This document shows, piece after piece, positions 40,920 to 64,000 of a stretch of 64,000 bases of DNA. The notes under the pieces are model-generated. The model was not told where the DNA came from. It was given only the letters and a program-made list of their open reading frames with translations, and did no database searches. The position numbers were made by a program, and so were the translations under genes. How positions within the stretch are numbered: the stretch's first letter is position 1; each line of letters begins with the position of its first letter. Source of the stretch: Halomarina pelagica (GTDB taxonomy: Archaea; Halobacteriota; Halobacteria; Halobacteriales; Haloarculaceae); the NCBI RefSeq assembly GCF_024228315.1, contig NZ_CP100457.1, positions 1 through 64,000 on the forward strand, given 5' to 3'.

Positions 40920-41849
40920 TCAATGCGTGTGCCCCGTTCGATCAGCGTGTGTCGCGTCCGAGGTGAGGGATTCCGTCAGCTCGATCGTCGCATGGTCGAT
41001 GCCTCGCTCTGTCAGGCTGGCATGTACACGGGATCGAATGGCCTCACGCTCCTCGATCGTGGTCGCCAAATCGACGAGACGCACCGTCCCAACGGTAAGC
41101 TGGCTGCACACCTGCCAGACGTGGAGATCGTCGACGCGCTCGACGCCATCGATCCCTGTGAGTTCGTTCCGCAGATCGGTCGGATCGATCGGGCTCCGTT
41201 CGAGGAGAATCGTCGTGCTTTCGCGGAGCACCTTCCCGGCCGACCACAGAATTAGCACTCCGATGAGGACCGCTGCAGCGGGGTCAGCCACGGGAAGATC
41301 CAACACCGCCACGGCTAGTGTCGAAATGATGACTGCAACCGATCCACTGGCGTCACCGAGCAGGTGATAGAACGCACCGCGTTCATTGAGACTCATTTCA
41401 CCGCCCTGGAGGATATAGACCGAGCCGATATTGACGAGCAGGCCGCCAGTCGCAACGACGAGCGTCAGTACCGGATCGATATCGACCGGATTGAGAAACC
41501 GCTGGTATGACTCCCAGAGGATGTACCCGACCATCGGCAAGAGGAGGATGCCGTTAAGGAAGGCGGCGACCGGCTCGAGTCGATGTAGCCCGTAGGACCA
41601 CGCCTCGCCGCCCTCGAAGCGTTCGGCGGTATAGCTTGCGCCGAACGCCATCGCATACGCGAGCATGTCGAACAGCATGTGGAGCGCGTCGCTAATGAGG
41701 GCGACCGACCCGAACAGGAGCCCGCCAGCCAACTCCACGACGAAGCCGACGAAGTTGACGACGGCGACGAGTGCTAATCGTCGCGTACTCCCATCTGAAT
41801 TGGGAGTCGGTTCAGCCTCGGCGCCGTGGTCGTGATCGGAGAGGGACAT
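40920..41849 (-). CDS. CDF-family Zn/Cd exporter, copy 2, site intact
   Basis: Cation diffusion facilitator of 309 residues with six helices and a C-terminal cytosolic domain. Helix 2 has DALHMLFD and helix 5 has FYHLLGDASGS, the two His-x3-Asp sites that form the zinc transport centre. The cytosolic domain keeps DLHVWQVCSQLTVG. The His-rich N-terminus (SDHDHG) and C-terminus (HADRTGHTH) are typical. It is last of the ATPase-RPLD-CDF operon, 47 bases after the RPLD gene. Compared with 19240-20139 this is the functional-looking paralogue. It exports zinc or cadmium using the proton gradient; specificity is inferred. Confidence 0.92.
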   Translation of the reverse strand: MSLSDHDHGAEAEPTPNSDGSTRRLALVAVVNFVGFVVELAGGLLFGSVALISDALHMLFDMLAYAMAFGASYTAERFEGGEAWSYGLHRLEPVAAFLNGILLLPMVGYILWESYQRFLNPVDIDPVLTLVVATGGLLVNIGSVYILQGGEMSLNERGAFYHLLGDASGSVAVIISTLAVAVLDLPVADPAAAVLIGVLILWSAGKVLRESTTILLERSPIDPTDLRNELTGIDGVERVDDLHVWQVCSQLTVGTVRLVDLATTIEEREAIRSRVHASLTERGIDHATIELTESLTSDATHADRTGHTH

Positions 41850-42343: not shown

Positions 42344-44995
42344 TCACGAATTGACAGCGTCAGACTCGCCACCCGTCTTCGGTTTGATGCGGGAGAGCCG
42401 CATCGCGTTGCCGGTCACACCGACCGTCATACCGGCGTCCCCCGCGAGGACGGCCAACCAGATGGGCACGTATCCAAACGGGACGGCCAGGGCGAGGCCG
42501 GCCTTGACCGCCAGACTCGCCCAGATGTTCTGGCGGATGACGCCGTTTGCGTCGTTCGCGAGTTCGTAGAGGTAGGGAAGTTTCGCGAGGTCGTCGCCCA
42601 TCAGGGCGATGTCAGCCGTTTCGAGGGCCGTGTCCGTCCCGGCGGCGCCCATTGCGACGCCGACCGTGGCGGTGGCGAGGGCGGGCGCGTCGTTGATGCC
42701 GTCGCCGACCATCGCCACGCCGTCGTACTCGTCGACGAGCTCGTCGATGGCATCGACCTTCTCCTCGGGGAGGAGTTCCGCCCGGTAGTCGTCGACGCCG
42801 ACCTGCTCGGCGATCGCTCGTGCGGTCCGCTCGTTGTCGCCCGTGAGCATCACCGTCCGCTTGACGCCGAGCTCTTTCATTCGGCGCACCGCGTGCTTGG
42901 CCTCGGGCCGGACTTCGTCGGCGACGCCGATGATCCCCTCGAGTTCGTCCTCGGTGCCGACGAGGACGACGGTCTTGCCCTCCGCCTGGAGGTCAGGCAC
43001 CGTGTCCTCGAGGAGGTCGAGGCAGTTGTTGCGTTCGCACAGTTGCTGTGCAGTTTGGGTGACGACGCCACCATCAGTCGTCGCGTGGACGTGCGAGAGG
43101 TCGAAGCCGAGCTCCTCGAAGAGACCAGGCTTGCCGGCGAAGTGGGGCGTTCCGTCGAGGTCGGCGCGGACACCCTTGCCTGTGATGCTCTCGAACTCCT
43201 CGATTTCCCGCTCGGCGACGCCAGCTGCGCCTGCCTCCGCGACGATGGCTTCGCCGATGGGATGCTCACTGCGCTGTTCGAGTCCCCGGGCACACCGGAG
43301 GACGTCGTCCTCAGTGTTGCCATTCAGCGGAACGACATTGGTGACGGTGAGCTCACCCTTCGTCAGGGTTCCTGTCTTGTCGAACGCGACGACGTCGACC
43401 GCACCCATCGCCTCTAGATGGTTGCCGCCCTTGATGAGGACGCCGTTCTTCGCGGCGCTCGTGATCCCGGAGACGACGGAAACAGGCGTCGAGATGACGA
43501 ACGCGCACGGACAGGCGAGTACGAGCAGCGTCAGGCCGTAGACGACGGCCGTCGACCACGTCGTCCCCATGATGTAGGGACTGCCTAGGGTGACGAGGAC
43601 GGCGAACGCGACGACGACCGGCGTGTAGTACGCCGAGAAGCGCTCGACGAACTGCTCGCGTTCAGTCTTGTTCGCCTGCGCGTCCTCGACCATCTCGACG
43701 ATGCGGGAGAGCGTGTTGTCGCCTGCCTCCGAAGTGACCTCCACTTCCAGGTAGCCCTCCTCGTTAATCGTGCCGGCGTACACCTCGTCACCCTCCGTCT
43801 TGTCGACGGGCACGCTCTCGCCCGTGATGGGGGCCTGGTTCACCGCGCTCTCGCCGTCGACGACGTCACCGTCCATTGGGATCTTCTCTCCAGGTCTGAC
43901 GACCACGATGTCACCGACCGCAACTTCGTCGACTGGGATCGTCTCCTCGGTTCCGTTCCGTTTAACGGTCGCCTCGTCCGGGGAGAGGTCCATCAGCTCC
44001 TGCAGCGAGTTGCGTGCACGATCCATCGAGGAGCGCTCAAGGAGTTCCGCGATGCTGAAGAGGAACGCGAGCGTGGCGGCTTCGAAGTAGAGGGCTTCGC
44101 CGAACGCGAGGCTCGCGACGAGCGCCCCGAGGATGGCGATCGACATCAGGAAGTCAATATCGAGATTCAGATTGCGGGCGGAGTAGTAGCCATTCCGGAG
44201 GATTTCCTGGCCGCCAATGGCGATGGCGATCAGGAATAGCACGTCTGCGACAAGGAGTTCACTCCCGAGGAGGCTCGCGACCTGGGCGTTCTGTCCGAGG
44301 AGGGCGAATTCGAAGAGGAGTCCGAGTGCGACGAAGCCACCGCTGATCCACGTCTTGATTGCACGTGGACTCATCCAGATACTCTCCTGTGTATCGAGAT
44401 CGTCGCTGCCTCCAGCGCCATCAGCGGTTGTGTTTGTGACCTCGTAGCCCGCACTCTCGATGGCAGAGACAATATCAGACTCAGTCACGGTCGTCGAGTC
44501 GTACGTGACAGCAACCTTCCCGGTCGTGGGCTGCGGATCAGTCATCGACACGCCGGCGAGGCCGTCAAGCGCATTCTCAACCTTGCCAGCACACGAGGGA
44601 CAGTCCATCTCCGGAACGGTGAACTTCGCCGTGATCTCTCCGGAATTTTCGACGCTGTACCCTGCTTTCTCAACGCGGTCGGCGATGGCATCTGCCGTCG
44701 TCTGGTCGTCCTCGTAGGAAACGGTGAGCGTCCCCGTCGTCACCTGTGGGTCGACGTCGTTGATTCCGTCGATCTTCCGGATGCTGTTCTCGACTTTCCC
44801 GGCACAGGACGGGCAGTCCATTTCGGGGACCGAGAACTGTGCGACGTCACCCTCGTCTATTGTCGTCGAGTTCGGTTTGTCGTCTCCGTGACCATGATCG
44901 TGGTCGTGATTGTGACTGTGATCATGGTCATGGTCATGATCGTGCGAGTGGGATCCCTCACAAGAGCCGTGTGAATCCCTGTTTGACGAGGTCAT
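42344..44995 (-). CDS. P1B-type Zn/Cd-exporting ATPase (ZntA-like), copy 2
   Basis: 883 residues, close relative of 16246-18867. The N-terminus is strikingly rich in His/Asp (about residues 10-40, alternating His-Asp), then two heavy-metal-associated domains, each with MDCPSCAGK. The core has TGES, CPC at 495-497, DKTGTLT at Asp 539, SEHP, TGDN, GDGINDAPA. The last helices have Lys in AVKAGLALAV and Asp in LAGDAGMTVG, the P1B-2 (Zn/Cd/Pb) signature. The two pumps differ mainly in the N-terminal His tail and the soluble domain. It is first gene of the second cassette, with a promoter resembling that of copy 1. Confidence 0.93.
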   Translation of the reverse strand: MTSSNRDSHGSCEGSHSHDHDHDHDHSHNHDHDHGHGDDKPNSTTIDEGDVAQFSVPEMDCPSCAGKVENSIRKIDGINDVDPQVTTGTLTVSYEDDQTTADAIADRVEKAGYSVENSGEITAKFTVPEMDCPSCAGKVENALDGLAGVSMTDPQPTTGKVAVTYDSTTVTESDIVSAIESAGYEVTNTTADGAGGSDDLDTQESIWMSPRAIKTWISGGFVALGLLFEFALLGQNAQVASLLGSELLVADVLFLIAIAIGGQEILRNGYYSARNLNLDIDFLMSIAILGALVASLAFGEALYFEAATLAFLFSIAELLERSSMDRARNSLQELMDLSPDEATVKRNGTEETIPVDEVAVGDIVVVRPGEKIPMDGDVVDGESAVNQAPITGESVPVDKTEGDEVYAGTINEEGYLEVEVTSEAGDNTLSRIVEMVEDAQANKTEREQFVERFSAYYTPVVVAFAVLVTLGSPYIMGTTWSTAVVYGLTLLVLACPCAFVISTPVSVVSGITSAAKNGVLIKGGNHLEAMGAVDVVAFDKTGTLTKGELTVTNVVPLNGNTEDDVLRCARGLEQRSEHPIGEAIVAEAGAAGVAEREIEEFESITGKGVRADLDGTPHFAGKPGLFEELGFDLSHVHATTDGGVVTQTAQQLCERNNCLDLLEDTVPDLQAEGKTVVLVGTEDELEGIIGVADEVRPEAKHAVRRMKELGVKRTVMLTGDNERTARAIAEQVGVDDYRAELLPEEKVDAIDELVDEYDGVAMVGDGINDAPALATATVGVAMGAAGTDTALETADIALMGDDLAKLPYLYELANDANGVIRQNIWASLAVKAGLALAVPFGYVPIWLAVLAGDAGMTVGVTGNAMRLSRIKPKTGGESDAVNS

Positions 44996-47241: not shown

Positions 47242-48309
47242 TCACACAGTGAACTCGATTGGTGGCATATCGAGAAAGGCAGTCTCGTATCCGTCGTGTC
47301 GTGCGAGCTGGGGCGGCGTCTGTACGGTAATCGTGACTGAGTCGCCTACCTTGATCTTCGGAATGGACGTCCCGTAATAACAGCTAATCTCTGGATCGAG
47401 TGATGCCCGAAGCGGTCCCTGAAAAACCGTTTTCTGTCCGCGTTCCACGGTCGCCGAGAGCGCCATCCGGGGGAGAACGACACGATTGTACGGCGTTCGC
47501 GGTGAGACGATCATGTACGGACGATCACCATCTCCAAAGCGAGTTCCCGCCTCGACAACGGAGACAAAGAAGGTCGCGTCACCAGAGGAACCGTCACCGA
47601 TCAGTCGACCGGGAAGATTGCCCTTCCGTGGCGCCAGGGGTTCGGGCATCATTTGCATCTCCATCAGGTCGACAGTTCCTCGAGTCCCTGCCTTCTCTCC
47701 CAACCGTCGATACTCGAGATTGTACGTTTCACTCGTATCGAAGGTGAAGCTCATCGTCGCCGATTGTGCCTCCGTGAATCGGCCTTCGAACGGCTCCGTT
47801 CGATCGGTCTGAAGCGGCCCGACGCGAAGGGTAACGTCATACTGTCCCTCCCCCGGAAGTCCGACGTTGTCTCCGTAGTGAAAGCCCATGTTTGGCGAGA
47901 TCATCGGCCACAAATTGGTGCTGGTTACCTGGCCGTCGGCGTTGCTGATCTCCGCGGAGATATCGATCGGCAGGATCGTGTTCGTCTCCACGTCCCAGAC
48001 GCTCGCCATGAGATGGAGGGAATCACTGGATCGAACGACGACCTTCGTCTTGTTCGTCCCAGTTAGGTTCCAGAACCGGTGCGGGAACGAGTGCATCAGT
48101 GCAAATCCGACATCGCCGGCTGTCGTCGTCCCGTACATCCCCATCCCTTCGACAATCGCCGGATAATAGACGGCATCAGGCCTGTTCTGAACGAGCGGGG
48201 GATCCCGCCACGCAGATTGTGTCTCGAAGCCGAGACTGCTGAGACAGCCTGCAGTCATCAGTCCGCCTGTAATGGCGACACTCTGTTTCAATACCGTTCG
48301 TCGATTCAT
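47242..48309 (-). CDS. Tat-exported P19-like iron/copper-binding lipoprotein, copy 2
   Basis: 355 residues. Tat signal plus lipobox (RRTVLKQSVAITGG... TAGCLSS). The first domain (about 40-190) resembles periplasmic P19/Tp34-type iron transport proteins (PF10634): RPDAVYYPAIVEGMGM, SFPHRFWNLTGTNKTKV, SDSLHLMASVWDVET, GFHYGDNVGLPG. Met and His of such blocks bind copper and iron in characterised members. A second domain of ~150 residues (PYMIVSPRTPYNRVVLPRMAL) resembles itself in copy 1 and is unknown to me. It is last gene of the DyP-P19-P19 cluster. Role in extracellular iron capture or reduction is inferred. Confidence 0.78.
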   Translation of the reverse strand: MNRRTVLKQSVAITGGLMTAGCLSSLGFETQSAWRDPPLVQNRPDAVYYPAIVEGMGMYGTTTAGDVGFALMHSFPHRFWNLTGTNKTKVVVRSSDSLHLMASVWDVETNTILPIDISAEISNADGQVTSTNLWPMISPNMGFHYGDNVGLPGEGQYDVTLRVGPLQTDRTEPFEGRFTEAQSATMSFTFDTSETYNLEYRRLGEKAGTRGTVDLMEMQMMPEPLAPRKGNLPGRLIGDGSSGDATFFVSVVEAGTRFGDGDRPYMIVSPRTPYNRVVLPRMALSATVERGQKTVFQGPLRASLDPEISCYYGTSIPKIKVGDSVTITVQTPPQLARHDGYETAFLDMPPIEFTV

Positions 48310-48431
48310 ATTATGACCACCTATTGACTAAGTGGAAGTGAGCATCGACACTGGCCGGCTTCTCCTCAGAGTCCTCTTGTTGGTTCGCTATGTGGGTAGC
48401 TACGTGGTGTCCAGTGGACATGCGAATCTCT

Positions 48432-48518
48432 CTACGCCAATCGTACCACGAAACCCGTGAGTACCAGCAGCGTGACGACTCCGAGAAGGGCGCCCAGCAC
48501 GAGGTGTTTCTCTTCCAT
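48432..48518 (-). CDS. 28-residue single-helix peptide in the P19 cluster
   Basis: MEEKHLVLGALLG then a hydrophobic helix ending TGFVVRLA, encoded in the 248-base gap between the two P19-like genes on the same strand. It has a clean charge pattern (acidic/basic start, hydrophobic core, Arg end) as in small membrane subunits. Small size makes it uncertain. Confidence 0.4.
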   Translation of the reverse strand: MEEKHLVLGALLGVVTLLVLTGFVVRLA

Positions 48519-48557
48519 ATCATAGCTTGCGAATACGCATCCAAATACTCCGTGGAA

Positions 48558-49619
48558 TTAGAGCGATAGCTGCAGTTCGGGCATATCGACGAACGTAGTC
48601 TCATAGCCCTCGTGTCGAGCAGTCTGTGGAGGTGACTCGACAGTGATTGTAATTTCATCACCTGACTGGATGTCCGAGACAACGGCGCCGTAGTGATACT
48701 GTAGCTCAGGATCGATCGTCGCCTGTAGAATTCCGTCAAATACCGATGCACCGTTTCGTTTCAATGCCCCCGATAGCGACATCATCGGGAGCATCGTGCG
48801 ATTATAGGGTGTGCGTGGTGATACTGCAAGATAGCGCTGGTTCGAGTCACCTCCGAACCGGGATGCACCGTCGAGCACCGTCACCACGAATTTCGCATCC
48901 CCGCTCGTCGCAGCGCCACGAACGTCACCAGAAAGTGCCTCGGGCGTTGGAACCTGCGAACTCGGCAGCCTCTGCATGTCCATCAGCTCGATAGCTCCCT
49001 TCGTCCCCTCCTTGTCTTCAGGGATATCAGTGTACGAGATCTCGTTGAGCGTCGATTCGCTGAACTCGAACTCGAACGAAAAAGTTGCGTTCCCCTGATT
49101 CTCGGCTAGTGCCCCAGTTCGGCGTGTTGACGGCCCGCTGATGCTTACATCGACCGTATATGTCCCGTCACCCTGGAGTTGCGCGTTGTCCCCGAAGTGA
49201 AACCCCATCGGCTGGGACAGCATCGGCCACGGTGCAAATTGGTCTACCGACTCGCCGCCCCGTGTGATCTCCACCTGCGGATTGATATCCGGTGGGATTA
49301 GGCCGGTCTCTGCATCCCAGACGATTGGCATCAGATGTACCGAGTCGTCGGGCTGGATGTCGACCTTCGTGATACCGTTCGGTTTCATCAGCCAGAACCG
49401 ATGAGCGTACGAGTAGGTGAGTGCGCACTTGTAGCCACTCTGCTCATTCATTCCCAGCATTTTCATCCCCTCGTAGTGGGTCGGATAATAGACTGCATCT
49501 GGCCGATTCTCCGGGAGGGGTGGCGCTCGCGCTGATCGCGTCTCAAACAATCCCGTACACCCTGCGAGACCGACGAGAGATGTCCCTCCGATCATCCGAA
49601 GGGCGTCACGACGACGCAT
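48558..49619 (-). CDS. Tat-exported P19-like iron/copper-binding lipoprotein, copy 1
   Basis: 353 residues from ATG at 49619. Tat signal and lipobox (RRDALRMIGGTSLVG LAGCTG). Same two-domain layout as 47242: RPDAVYYPTHYEGMKMLGM, YSYAHRFWLM, DSVHLMPIVWDAET, GFHFGDNAQLQGD, then RYLAVSPRTPYNRTMLP and a C-terminal ETTFVDMPELQL. The first copy of the pair is encoded 14 bases inside the end of the DyP-like gene, so translation is coupled. P19-type proteins in bacteria are partners of Ftr1-type permeases; no permease is present here. The acceptor is unknown. Confidence 0.8.
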   Translation of the reverse strand: MRRRDALRMIGGTSLVGLAGCTGLFETRSARAPPLPENRPDAVYYPTHYEGMKMLGMNEQSGYKCALTYSYAHRFWLMKPNGITKVDIQPDDSVHLMPIVWDAETGLIPPDINPQVEITRGGESVDQFAPWPMLSQPMGFHFGDNAQLQGDGTYTVDVSISGPSTRRTGALAENQGNATFSFEFEFSESTLNEISYTDIPEDKEGTKGAIELMDMQRLPSSQVPTPEALSGDVRGAATSGDAKFVVTVLDGASRFGGDSNQRYLAVSPRTPYNRTMLPMMSLSGALKRNGASVFDGILQATIDPELQYHYGAVVSDIQSGDEITITVESPPQTARHEGYETTFVDMPELQLSL

Positions 49620-50910
49620 GCGCCACCTCTTGGCGGTCACCAGGCGGGTTTGCAGGAGGAAGCGCTCGTAACGAGCGGGGAGGGACGAGATAGTTGCCGC
49701 GGCGCTCTGTCCGAATGTACTGGAGAATGCCGTTATTGTTTCGTTGACCCACCGCAGATTGCTCGGCGACATCCGTCCCGTTCATCGCCTCTCGCGTCTT
49801 CACGAAATCACCAATTTCGCGCTGGAGGGCGAGAAAGTGAAGGCCCGCCTGATCGCCATCAGTTGAGTTGAAGTCCCGTCGGAGAATGAGCGGCTGATCG
49901 TTCTCACGAACTGCTGCTGACTTCTGCGAATGTCCGACGACGCCCATCTCACGCGCTGTCTCCGTCGTCGGTCCACAGTCGTCGATCTTGCTACTGTCAC
50001 CGAGATTATCCCCCGCCCCTTCGATAATGTCGTTCTCTGCGTGATACGGGCAGAACATCTTCGCCTCACGTTGCCAGCGGTCGTCCTGATTGTACCACTG
50101 GTTGAGATTTAGCTGGAGCTTCGAGATGTGCTGTGTCGTCCCGCCGACAAACGGCCCCGACTGAATCGTGACGCGATCCTCACTGGCCTGGTTCTTCTCG
50201 AACCCGGATTTGAATCCCATGAACAACGGAGCATCCTCGGGCACTTTGTCCGCGGGAACGCCTTCGGCGTCGTCCGCGTTCTCGGCCGGGAGCCCGTCCC
50301 CAATGAATCCCGTCCGTCGGTCGACCACCTTGAACACGTCCGTGAGCGATGCATCGGGTTGATCGACACCATTGAGTGTCGATTGGTTCCCTTTGAGGGC
50401 TTCTTCGGTACCCAATACCACCTGAGCATGGTTACTCGCTATGTGAACGACTGCGTCCGGCGTGTCGAGTTCGGGGTCCTCGAATGGAGCCAGCGCCTCA
50501 GGGCTCGGGAGATCGACACTCTGCGGCAGCGCACCATCGAAGCGGTCGAAATACGCCCGCGAGTAACTCACCGTCATCAACAGCCCGTTTCCGCTTCGCT
50601 CGTACGCGTGTTCGACACCTTCGACCGCGGTTTCGATCGTCGTCCGGTCCTCCTCAGTCGGTTGACCACGTTGCCTGTAGTTCAGGTATAGAAGGACACG
50701 ATGGCGAGGGGCGACGACATTCCCGTGGTCATCTGTAGGGAGGACATTGTTCCAGGCGTGCTGGCGCTCGGGGAACGAGGATAGGTCGTCCGGGCCGGTT
50801 GGGACATCAAGCTCCTCGCGTCCCAAACACGCGCTGAACGCCGCCGCACCACCGATTGCGACAGCTGATCTCAGGAACGACCTCCGTGGAATTCTACGAC
50901 TATCGGTCAT
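49606..50910 (-). CDS. Tat-exported DyP-type peroxidase-like protein
   Basis: 434 residues from ATG at 50910. Tat signal with twin Arg (RIPRRSFLRSAV) and a lipobox-like FSACLG. The fold-typical segments are ADAVVHIAS NHAQVV-like (here DAVVHIASNHAQVV), MGFKSGF, GGTTQHISKLQLN, REMGVVGHSQK and ILRRDFNS. In classical DyP/EfeB enzymes GxxDG supplies a catalytic Asp; here it is GFKSG with Ser. The candidate proximal heme ligand is the His of TTQHIS and the Arg of LRRDF is kept. It is first in an operon with two P19-like lipoproteins. The combination recalls bacterial EfeOB/FetMP iron uptake. Heme binding and activity are inferred. Confidence 0.75.
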   Translation of the reverse strand: MTDSRRIPRRSFLRSAVAIGGAAAFSACLGREELDVPTGPDDLSSFPERQHAWNNVLPTDDHGNVVAPRHRVLLYLNYRQRGQPTEEDRTTIETAVEGVEHAYERSGNGLLMTVSYSRAYFDRFDGALPQSVDLPSPEALAPFEDPELDTPDAVVHIASNHAQVVLGTEEALKGNQSTLNGVDQPDASLTDVFKVVDRRTGFIGDGLPAENADDAEGVPADKVPEDAPLFMGFKSGFEKNQASEDRVTIQSGPFVGGTTQHISKLQLNLNQWYNQDDRWQREAKMFCPYHAENDIIEGAGDNLGDSSKIDDCGPTTETAREMGVVGHSQKSAAVRENDQPLILRRDFNSTDGDQAGLHFLALQREIGDFVKTREAMNGTDVAEQSAVGQRNNNGILQYIRTERRGNYLVPPRSLRALPPANPPGDRQEVAHASS

Positions 50911-61414: not shown

Positions 61415-62104
61415 TCAGCCCTGCGGTGGCTGGGTGACTTGGCCTGCGATGGTGGCGACGTAGCGGAACGTTCCTGGCTCGATATACCCGTTTCCGACCA
61501 GATTGAGTTCTCCTTCGACTGTCTGACCACCGTTCATGAACTGGAGGAGGATTTCACCCTGAATGATCTGATAGACTCCGGCCGTCAATCCAGATCGCGA
61601 GTTGAAGTTATTGAGAACGGCCGAACGAGCTGACGGCAACCCCCAGACTCGTCCATCGACGGTGATCTGGAGGAGGTTTTTCGCGGCATCCGCCGCGACG
61701 ATCGCGACATCGATGTTGGATGCGTCGGTATTCGACGGGATGCCGACTGCATCGTAGAGACTCGTGTTCGTCGCAAACCAGATCGATCCAGCTTCGGGAA
61801 GACCCGCCGGATTCCCGGAGCGAAGCGCAATATCACGCGCGTTCTGTCCGTTGTCGAAGTTGACCGTCGTTCGGTCTAATGGAGGTGCAACGAGGAGGAG
61901 TACTTCGCGGCGGAACGGCTGGTGTGTCGTTGCTCCCTCGACGATCACCTGATAATACGTAGGATTCGTCGGGATTGCACTGGCTTGCGCTGCTCCACGT
62001 CCACTCACTGCGAACGCACTCGCGCCGATGCCGCCGAGTGCTCGTAGCACGGTCCGTCGCCGGATTCGTTGATCGCTCCTCGCTGATGTCTGAATCTCTG
62101 CCAT
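61415..62104 (-). CDS. Tat-exported protein of unknown function
   Basis: 229 residues from ATG at 62104. The Tat signal has RRRTVLRALGGIGASAFA, cleavage probably after GRGAAQA. The mature part is beta-rich and soluble with no Cys and few His. It contains VYQIIQGEILLQFMNGGQTV and GTFRYVATIAGQV. I recognise no family. It lies about 450 bases downstream of the tyrosinase-like gene on the same strand, so it might be exported alongside it. Confidence 0.6.
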   Translation of the reverse strand: MAEIQTSARSDQRIRRRTVLRALGGIGASAFAVSGRGAAQASAIPTNPTYYQVIVEGATTHQPFRREVLLLVAPPLDRTTVNFDNGQNARDIALRSGNPAGLPEAGSIWFATNTSLYDAVGIPSNTDASNIDVAIVAADAAKNLLQITVDGRVWGLPSARSAVLNNFNSRSGLTAGVYQIIQGEILLQFMNGGQTVEGELNLVGNGYIEPGTFRYVATIAGQVTQPPQG

Positions 62105-62550
62105 CGTCGTGTCCTCTTGCTGTCGCTCCCCCGGATACCCCCGGAAGAACTCGAAGCGGTGATGGATGGCAGACAGCATATAGATTTACATTGACACATT
62201 CGGCAGAGGATACCCAGAGAGGGACACTCAGTAAAAAGAGTGGCGAGGACACACACACCTCTCAGCAGGATTAGGTTGGCACGGACGTGATGCTCACCGT
62301 TCCTCCAGTTGATAACGGTATGTACGAGGAGGTTGGTTCATGTCTATGAGCGCCCGCGTATCAAGACGGCCGACTAGGTGTGCCATAACGCCTACTGCAG
62401 ATAGACGGCCTGGCAGGTTGACGATGCCATCTCAGAGTAGTCCTCAAGGATCTGGACGTAGCGATACTCACACGCCGATGGATGATATATACTAGCTCCC
62501 TCCAGTGAAACGGCGTTGAGGTGGGGTGTCAATCATATCTCACGCTGGCG
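62105..62550. other. Intergenic region, no gene seen
   Basis: About 445 bases between the Tat-exported protein gene and the tyrosinase-motif gene. Short open frames only. The promoter of the Tat gene is presumably around 62120-62200. No repeat or RNA gene recognised. Confidence 0.45.
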
Positions 62551-63894
62551 CTACTTGCAGTGCTCCCATCGGTGAAAGAGTTCGTCGACATAGGCATGCC
62601 AGGGGTAGAAGATGGCCGCCGCTGCAGCCGTTTCTTGGAATCCCATCGCTCCTCCGATACCGTTCCCATTACCGCTATCTTCGTGGCGTTTGACCGTCCC
62701 ATCAGGCGCCTCGACATGAGTGAACTGCTGTGTGTGAATTTCGTCGTGCCAGGGTTGGAGTCGCTCGGAGAAGCCGAGGACCTTTTTCTCTGGATTGAGT
62801 GGGTCACTAGCGGGTTTTTCAACGGCAGTCACGTCTTGGATAAGACACGAGTACGGAGTCGTGAGTTGCGCTGGAACTGGATTGTCAGGATCGGGATCGT
62901 CAAGTGTCGTCTGCTCCTCCCCATTCGGGGCGACTTGCGGGCTTCCGTCATCACGCCGCTTCACCCATAAGAACTGTAGAGGAATCGGCGTATCCGGTGA
63001 CCACATAGGGAGAGGAAGGTACTGCGTGAGGCCCATCTCCCAGAGGTGGTGTTCTAACTCCGTGAGGATCTCACGATGATCGATCAGGAAGTCCACTCCC
63101 GTGTGCGATTTCCCGTCATGTTGGTTAACAACACGGTTCGTGATGTACCCCCAGATGGCGCCGGAAAGTTCCCACCGCTCGGCGTCACTTAACGTGGTCA
63201 GTCGTCGCCGCGTGGAGTCTCGACTGCGCGTGATGCGAAGAGCCATCGTTAATGGGACATGCCGTACTGGTGTGACGACGCGCCCGTTCTTTTCCTCGAC
63301 CATCGGGACGTCATAATTCGCCTTGGTATACGGGTCTGGCCGCCGGGCAGCTTTCTTCTGCTGTCGGTACTGCTCGATCGTCTTCCGTTCTTGGCCCCAA
63401 CAGTCTTCATGCTTGACTCGGTTGCCAATGACGAGAAGATACCCACTGCCCCGTCGGAGTGGGGCAGGAGGTACGATGGCGACACGCCATAGCGGCTCAA
63501 ACTGGTGTTCGGTATGAACAGAGAGCACTTCGTACCACCCTGCCGCTCGCGCTTCTGTCGCCGAGGGAGGCCCCTCTGGGAGCGGCGTATCTATGGCTGA
63601 ATGTCGAGACTCCGTTCCGTGGTGGTGATGCTCGAAAACTCGAATATCGTGTTCGACAAGGAGGGGGGCGGTAAACTCGACGATCGTACTTCCAGCGGGA
63701 AGCACGCCGTATGCTCCAGGCGCGATCTCGGTGTTCTGCCCGTGCAACCGTTCGAGGTGTCTGAAGGCAGCTACGGCATTGCTCACTGGTTGAACTACTG
63801 TCGGAGTTGGTCCGGTCACCTCGGGTCCACCCTTAAGTACTCGGATGAATCTCGGAATGCGAGCGCCCTGAACGTGAAACGGTGGGCACTCCAT
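62551..63894 (-). CDS. Tyrosinase-motif (type 3 copper) protein
   Basis: 447 residues, no signal peptide, no membrane helix. Two parts match the copper-site signatures of tyrosinase/hemocyanin proteins. CuA: HTGVDFLIDHREILTELE (about residues 264-281) fits PROSITE PS00497 except one residue (Asp where Phe/Trp is expected before HR). CuB: IFYPWHAYVD near the C-terminus fits PS00498 except that the leading Asp-Pro is absent; upstream RHED... IGGAMG corresponds to the first CuB His and Gly-Gly-x-Met. The second CuB His seems replaced. LPMWSPD after CuA resembles the usual LPYWDW. Full dicopper activity is uncertain. The N-terminal ~250 residues have no family I can name. Confidence 0.65.
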   Translation of the reverse strand: MECPPFHVQGARIPRFIRVLKGGPEVTGPTPTVVQPVSNAVAAFRHLERLHGQNTEIAPGAYGVLPAGSTIVEFTAPLLVEHDIRVFEHHHHGTESRHSAIDTPLPEGPPSATEARAAGWYEVLSVHTEHQFEPLWRVAIVPPAPLRRGSGYLLVIGNRVKHEDCWGQERKTIEQYRQQKKAARRPDPYTKANYDVPMVEEKNGRVVTPVRHVPLTMALRITRSRDSTRRRLTTLSDAERWELSGAIWGYITNRVVNQHDGKSHTGVDFLIDHREILTELEHHLWEMGLTQYLPLPMWSPDTPIPLQFLWVKRRDDGSPQVAPNGEEQTTLDDPDPDNPVPAQLTTPYSCLIQDVTAVEKPASDPLNPEKKVLGFSERLQPWHDEIHTQQFTHVEAPDGTVKRHEDSGNGNGIGGAMGFQETAAAAAIFYPWHAYVDELFHRWEHCK

Positions 63895-63896
63895 TG

Positions 63897-63926
63897 TCGG
63901 GAGGCTCCGCTCAGGGAGCCTCCCGA
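63897..63926 (-). promoter_or_regulatory. Perfect hairpin directly before the tyrosinase-motif gene
   Basis: TCGGGAGGCTCC (63897-63908), six-base loop GCTCAG, GGAGCCTCCCGA (63915-63926): a 12-bp perfect stem ending three bases before the ATG at 63894. It could be a 5' leader structure or the end of an older mobile element. Beyond it, 63927-64000 has no feature I can identify. Confidence 0.5.
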
Positions 63927-64000
63927 GGTTATTTCGCGTGCTACTATCACCACGCGTTTGAAGATGCCGTTTGCCACCCCTCGTGACGACTAGTACTTCT

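Follow-up and report, generated by a model that had tools for sequence, protein, structure and literature searches.

Does the protein encoded on the reverse strand at the end of this window (the whole stretch of DNA analysed, 64,000 nucleotides, contig C4:1-64000) contain a complete type 3 copper site of the tyrosinase kind, and what precedes that site in the polypeptide? Tyrosinases are copper enzymes that make melanin precursors. The sequence-only reading quoted two copper motifs, HTGVDFLIDHREILTELE and IFYPWHAYVD, from the open reading frame 62551-63894 (-), and both are present there exactly. However, the coordinates given for the gene were too short. The frame stays open beyond the window end up to an ATG at contig position 64164, so that the protein comprises 537 residues (542 from a GTG at 64179) rather than 447. 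The copper ligands are numbered according to the 537-residue protein.

The extended protein begins with a DUF3892 domain, continues with a middle region and ends with the tyrosinase domain (Table 1). The match of DUF3892 (PF13031) to residues 9-84 has an E-value of 4e-7 and 30.9 bits against a curated cut-off of 22.3, which assigns the N-terminus to this family; a search of the own genome also recovered the domain (5.8e-8). The middle region has no known family and no relative in the searches run. No signal peptide was seen at the N-terminus of the 537-residue protein, suggesting that the protein resides in the cytoplasm.

Table 1. Positions of the DUF3892-tyrosinase gene, its parts and the nearby genes discussed (window coordinates).
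Feature	Position	Strand	Remarks
DUF3892-tyrosinase gene, part inside the window	62551..64000	-	Open frame of 555 codons, no internal stop
DUF3892 domain, C-terminal part in the window	63913..64000	-	Residues 9-84 correspond to nt 63913-64140; remainder beyond the window
Inverted repeat	63898..63925		Perfect hairpin with a 6-nt loop, in frame at the junction between DUF3892 and the rest
Middle region, residues 87-316	63217..63906	-	Basic (pI 9.2), His-rich
Tyrosinase domain, residues 351-534	62563..63114	-	Pfam match, PF00264
CuA site, H349-x4-H354-x8-H363	63076..63120	-	From the sequence; invariant columns in the nine-protein alignment (A7)
CuB ligands 1 and 2, H473-x3-H477 (PWHDEIHT)	62734..62748	-	Common to the actinobacterial relative (PWHVHVHT)
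Insertion of ~24 residues after H477	62662..62733	-	Missing in the actinobacterial relative
CuB ligand 3, IFYPWHAYVDE	62581..62613	-	H523 (62596-62598), F519 and D527; from the sequence and alignment
Tat-signal protein, 230 aa, RRRTVLRALGG	61418-62107	-	Directly downstream of the tyrosinase gene
Two Fe2+_transport/DUF7350 proteins	47245-49772
Heavy-metal P-type ATPase with HMA domains	42347-44995
Cation efflux protein	40923-41849

Comparison with Pfam places the protein in the Tyrosinase family (PF00264), with an E-value of 6.6e-7 and a score of 30.3 bits (curated cut-off 22.6). The model is selective and tyrosinases are rare in haloarchaea, with matches in 5 of the 391 genomes sampled; within the own genome only the 62551-63894 locus matches. 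NCBIfam has no match for the protein. Thus, the impression of an unannotated protein holds for NCBIfam but not for Pfam. The codon pattern behind the CuB motif is present a single time in the window and was absent from all 100 shuffles.

The type 3 pattern consists of H-n-H-8-H at CuA and H-3-H-n-H at CuB, with a Phe four residues before both third histidines and an Asp four residues after the third CuB histidine (PMC3658974). The protein follows this pattern with H349, H354 and H363 at CuA, H473, H477 and H523 at CuB, and F359 (four residues before H363), F519 and D527. Together with the Pfam score above the cut-off, the fit of the six ligand positions supports the proposed type 3 copper domain with its order and spacing. 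The accompanying suggestion that one CuB histidine is replaced does not hold: the first two CuB ligands, H473-x3-H477, are found upstream of the motif that was quoted, the third is H523, and a histidine occupies each of the six ligand positions. The missing residue is a non-ligand seventh histidine (HisB3-1), in whose place Trp522 adjoins H523. This histidine is also missing in insect prophenoloxidases (PPOs) and in PaPvdP, and an Asp at HisB1+1, the position occupied here by Asp474, is known from active tyrosinases (PMC11608171). A variant copper site had been considered as well, which is justified only for the very short spacing between HisA1 and HisA2 (x4, far below that of the aligned canonical proteins) and not for the ligands themselves. 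The conservation of six of six ligands likewise disfavours a purely structural protein of the hemocyanin fold.

Relatives of the protein are scarce. It is an orphan found in one of the 391 haloarchaeal genomes, and protein searches retrieved no close relatives from these genomes, plasmids, phages, viral contigs or genome_contigs. A scan of genome_contigs for the motif FY.WH.YVD..F yielded 21 loci, all of them chance matches in unrelated frames, and a cyanobacterial match (L045) proved false. One close relative (L046, E 5.2e-14) was found in the actinobacterial genome G589 by a search of 296 genomes of that phylum. It is a 206-codon open frame encoding 198 residues from a GTG, matches Pfam Tyrosinase itself (E 6.5e-14, 53.2 bits) and shares 36% identity with the query across the domain (blastp 4e-28). 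Its contig ends ~70 bases past it.

The relative was included in an alignment of nine proteins, comprising the query, L046 and seven canonical tyrosinases from haloarchaea and viral contigs. Only 14 columns are invariant, and six of these are histidines, which are all six ligands. In a MAFFT alignment with the query and L046, the six histidines fall on the conserved histidine columns of the canonical tyrosinases, whereas none of 200 column-shuffled controls of the pair placed more than four there. When the query was aligned alone, four histidines fell on conserved columns; this test proves nothing, because 36 of 300 shuffles also reached four. A further alignment that included whole viral-contig tyrosinases (A3) was dropped because the first two CuB histidines were misplaced. 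Profile-profile comparison of the query and L046 with the canonical haloarchaeal and viral-contig tyrosinases gave a match in the CuA half (probability 97%, E 4.8e-11). Judged by its sequence, the protein is a genuine, divergent member of the tyrosinase family with intact ligands.

The tyrosinases of PF00264 with which the protein was compared (Bacillus megaterium tyrosinase, 3nm8/4hd4, and Streptomyces MelC2) have the same six ligand histidines, the CuA H-x8-H, the CuB H-x3-H...H, LP-W after CuA and GGxMG before the third CuB histidine. Unlike them, the query has a spacing of just four residues between HisA1 and HisA2, Trp instead of the seventh histidine, PLPxWxP rather than LPYWDW, an insertion at CuB, and the N-terminal DUF3892 and orphan region. 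The big N-terminal part ahead of the copper domain and the missing seventh histidine before the third CuB histidine are likenesses to insect prophenoloxidase, arthropod hemocyanin and Pseudomonas PvdP, the last of which also has Asp at HisB1+1 (PMC11608171). However, CuA is of the tyrosinase type, and the N-terminal domains show no sequence match to those of the three proteins. The closest likeness is to L046, with all six histidines, H-x4-H-x8-H, PWHxxxHT, PLPxWxP and GGxMG in common. In contrast to the query, L046 is a stand-alone domain that lacks DUF3892, the middle region and the CuB insertion, and it has Gly for Asp after the third CuB histidine and His for Phe before the third CuA histidine. 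The haloarchaeal tyrosinases L003-L006 share the Pfam family, the ligand pattern and the class of organisms, but are only 22-28% identical to the query and lack DUF3892. In the tree, the query and L046 group together apart from the other tyrosinases, with a support of 100/100 that is subject to a long-branch caveat. The enzyme family is already known; what sets this member apart is a domain architecture that the searches run found nowhere else, and the unusually short CuA spacing. The spacing lies at the short extreme and is common to one distant actinobacterial protein; the query would show how small a copper-binding core can be.

The protein is probably a divergent but functional type 3 copper protein of PF00264 that acts as a cytoplasmic, O2-dependent phenol or catechol oxidase. 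Two copper ions would be held by the CuA and CuB histidine triads, and the dicopper centre would take up O2 and convert a phenol or catechol, its aromatic substrate, into the o-quinone. The C-terminal domain would be the catalytic one, with DUF3892 and the 230-residue orphan region ahead of it. In insect phenoloxidases, an N-terminal domain shields or targets the active site. By analogy, the N-terminal parts of the query most likely shield, load or target its active site. Against the phenol or catechol oxidase speak the short HisA1-HisA2 spacing, the MAFFT result for the query alone, the low-confidence structural models that match nothing in the PDB, and the finding of just one other family member.

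Alternatively, the domain may bind O2 or copper as a type 3 protein other than a phenol oxidase, such as a hemocyanin-like carrier, a copper store or a specialised enzyme like o-aminophenol oxidase. This is unlikely. Trp adjoins the third CuB histidine in arthropod hemocyanin and phenoloxidase as it does here, but active insect phenoloxidases are among the proteins that have it. A PDB search with the query alone weakly ranked prophenoloxidase b (0.0063) and Limulus hemocyanin (0.21) first, whereas a profile search with the query and L046 favoured bacterial tyrosinases, with that of Bacillus megaterium as the top match (4.3e-5). L046 also has a weak likeness to the BagH/FevF o-aminophenol oxidase (0.015). 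In the arthropod (beta) type, the second CuA histidine is placed differently and H-x8-H is not formed (PMC3658974). The H354-x8-H363 of the query is of the tyrosinase (alpha) type, which separates it from the beta subclass of arthropod hemocyanins and phenoloxidases. Metal-transport genes in the same window would suit a copper carrier or store, and the sequence-only reading described an island full of copper genes. These genes do share the window, but they lie 12-23 kb away and none is adjacent. Thus, the copper-island argument lends weak support.

Two further proposals turn on DUF3892, which is known from fusions to Min-Wnt effector domains; a role in the sensing of RNAs or modified ribosomes has been proposed for it (PMC12419801). 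The protein might be a cytoplasmic, DUF3892-tethered dicopper oxidase whose CuA is a compact H-x4-H site and whose DUF3892 module guides the quinone chemistry to a target in the cell, such as RNA or ribosomes in conflict; it would then stand for a new functional branch among the type 3 copper proteins. We consider this quite improbable. Very improbable is that the protein is a defence or toxin-like effector, in which DUF3892 would respond to a signal and the tyrosinase domain would generate reactive quinones in the cell. The proposed sensing function of DUF3892 and its fusion to Min-Wnt effectors (PMC12419801) make such a conflict role conceivable, though not supported. The rare and patchy distribution and the location beside an Orc1/Cdc6 gene on a smaller contig are consistent with it. 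However, PADLOC has no match in the protein, its matches in the neighbours (AAA and methyltransferase) are all weak, and no defence neighbourhood was found. Furthermore, the actinobacterial relative does without DUF3892, and the other DUF3892 proteins of haloarchaea and plasmids, which resemble the query in its N-terminal 84 residues, are mostly stand-alone proteins of ~100 residues. For the favoured phenol or catechol oxidase, the fusion links DUF3892, an uncharacterised module, to a redox chemistry that can be tested.

That the gene is degenerating, or that separate genes for DUF3892 and tyrosinase were wrongly fused at the hairpin through a recent deletion or a mistake in the assembly, is hardly credible: the perfect hairpin sits exactly at the junction and the DUF3892-tyrosinase architecture has no second example in the genomes searched, but the frame is single and unbroken, each domain exceeds its own cut-off within it, and all six ligands are retained. 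The hairpin occurs once in the genome, has a fold z-score of -3.66 and lies directly ahead of an internal ATG at 63894. It may have arisen by chance or mark the place where the domains were fused.

An Orc1/Cdc6-type ATPase gene (contig C4 64604-65611, +) diverges from the DUF3892-tyrosinase gene and is followed by a gene for a DUF5694 protein. On the strand of the tyrosinase gene, an orphan Tat-signal protein (~440 bp off) and a TRAM protein are encoded downstream. Neither a substrate nor melanin genes were identified from the surroundings. The Tat-signal protein has no family and no matches in 18 related genomes. It is possibly an export partner; as a caddie resembling MelC1 it found no support from Pfam, NCBIfam or PDB. 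Contig C4 has 144,667 bases at ~57% GC and is possibly a plasmid.

Structure prediction with AlphaFold gave models of low confidence, with a mean pLDDT of 40.8 from the single sequence and 53.6 when fragments of viral-contig tyrosinases were supplied. Fold searches with the latter model found no PDB match. In this low-confidence model of a 221-residue fragment, helices at 11-25, 41-60, 149-164 and 203-219 are located approximately where a type 3 protein would place its four ligand helices, which does not suffice to establish the fold.

The searches also brought up other tyrosinases. The haloarchaeal tyrosinase L003 (1414-3792) continues in frame into a long C-terminal region that resembles a von Willebrand A domain (VVLDESGSM). 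At least a dozen IMG/VR contigs classed as viral carry closely related tyrosinases of ~500 residues (L071-L098) with a Tat-like N-terminus of the SRRxF type.
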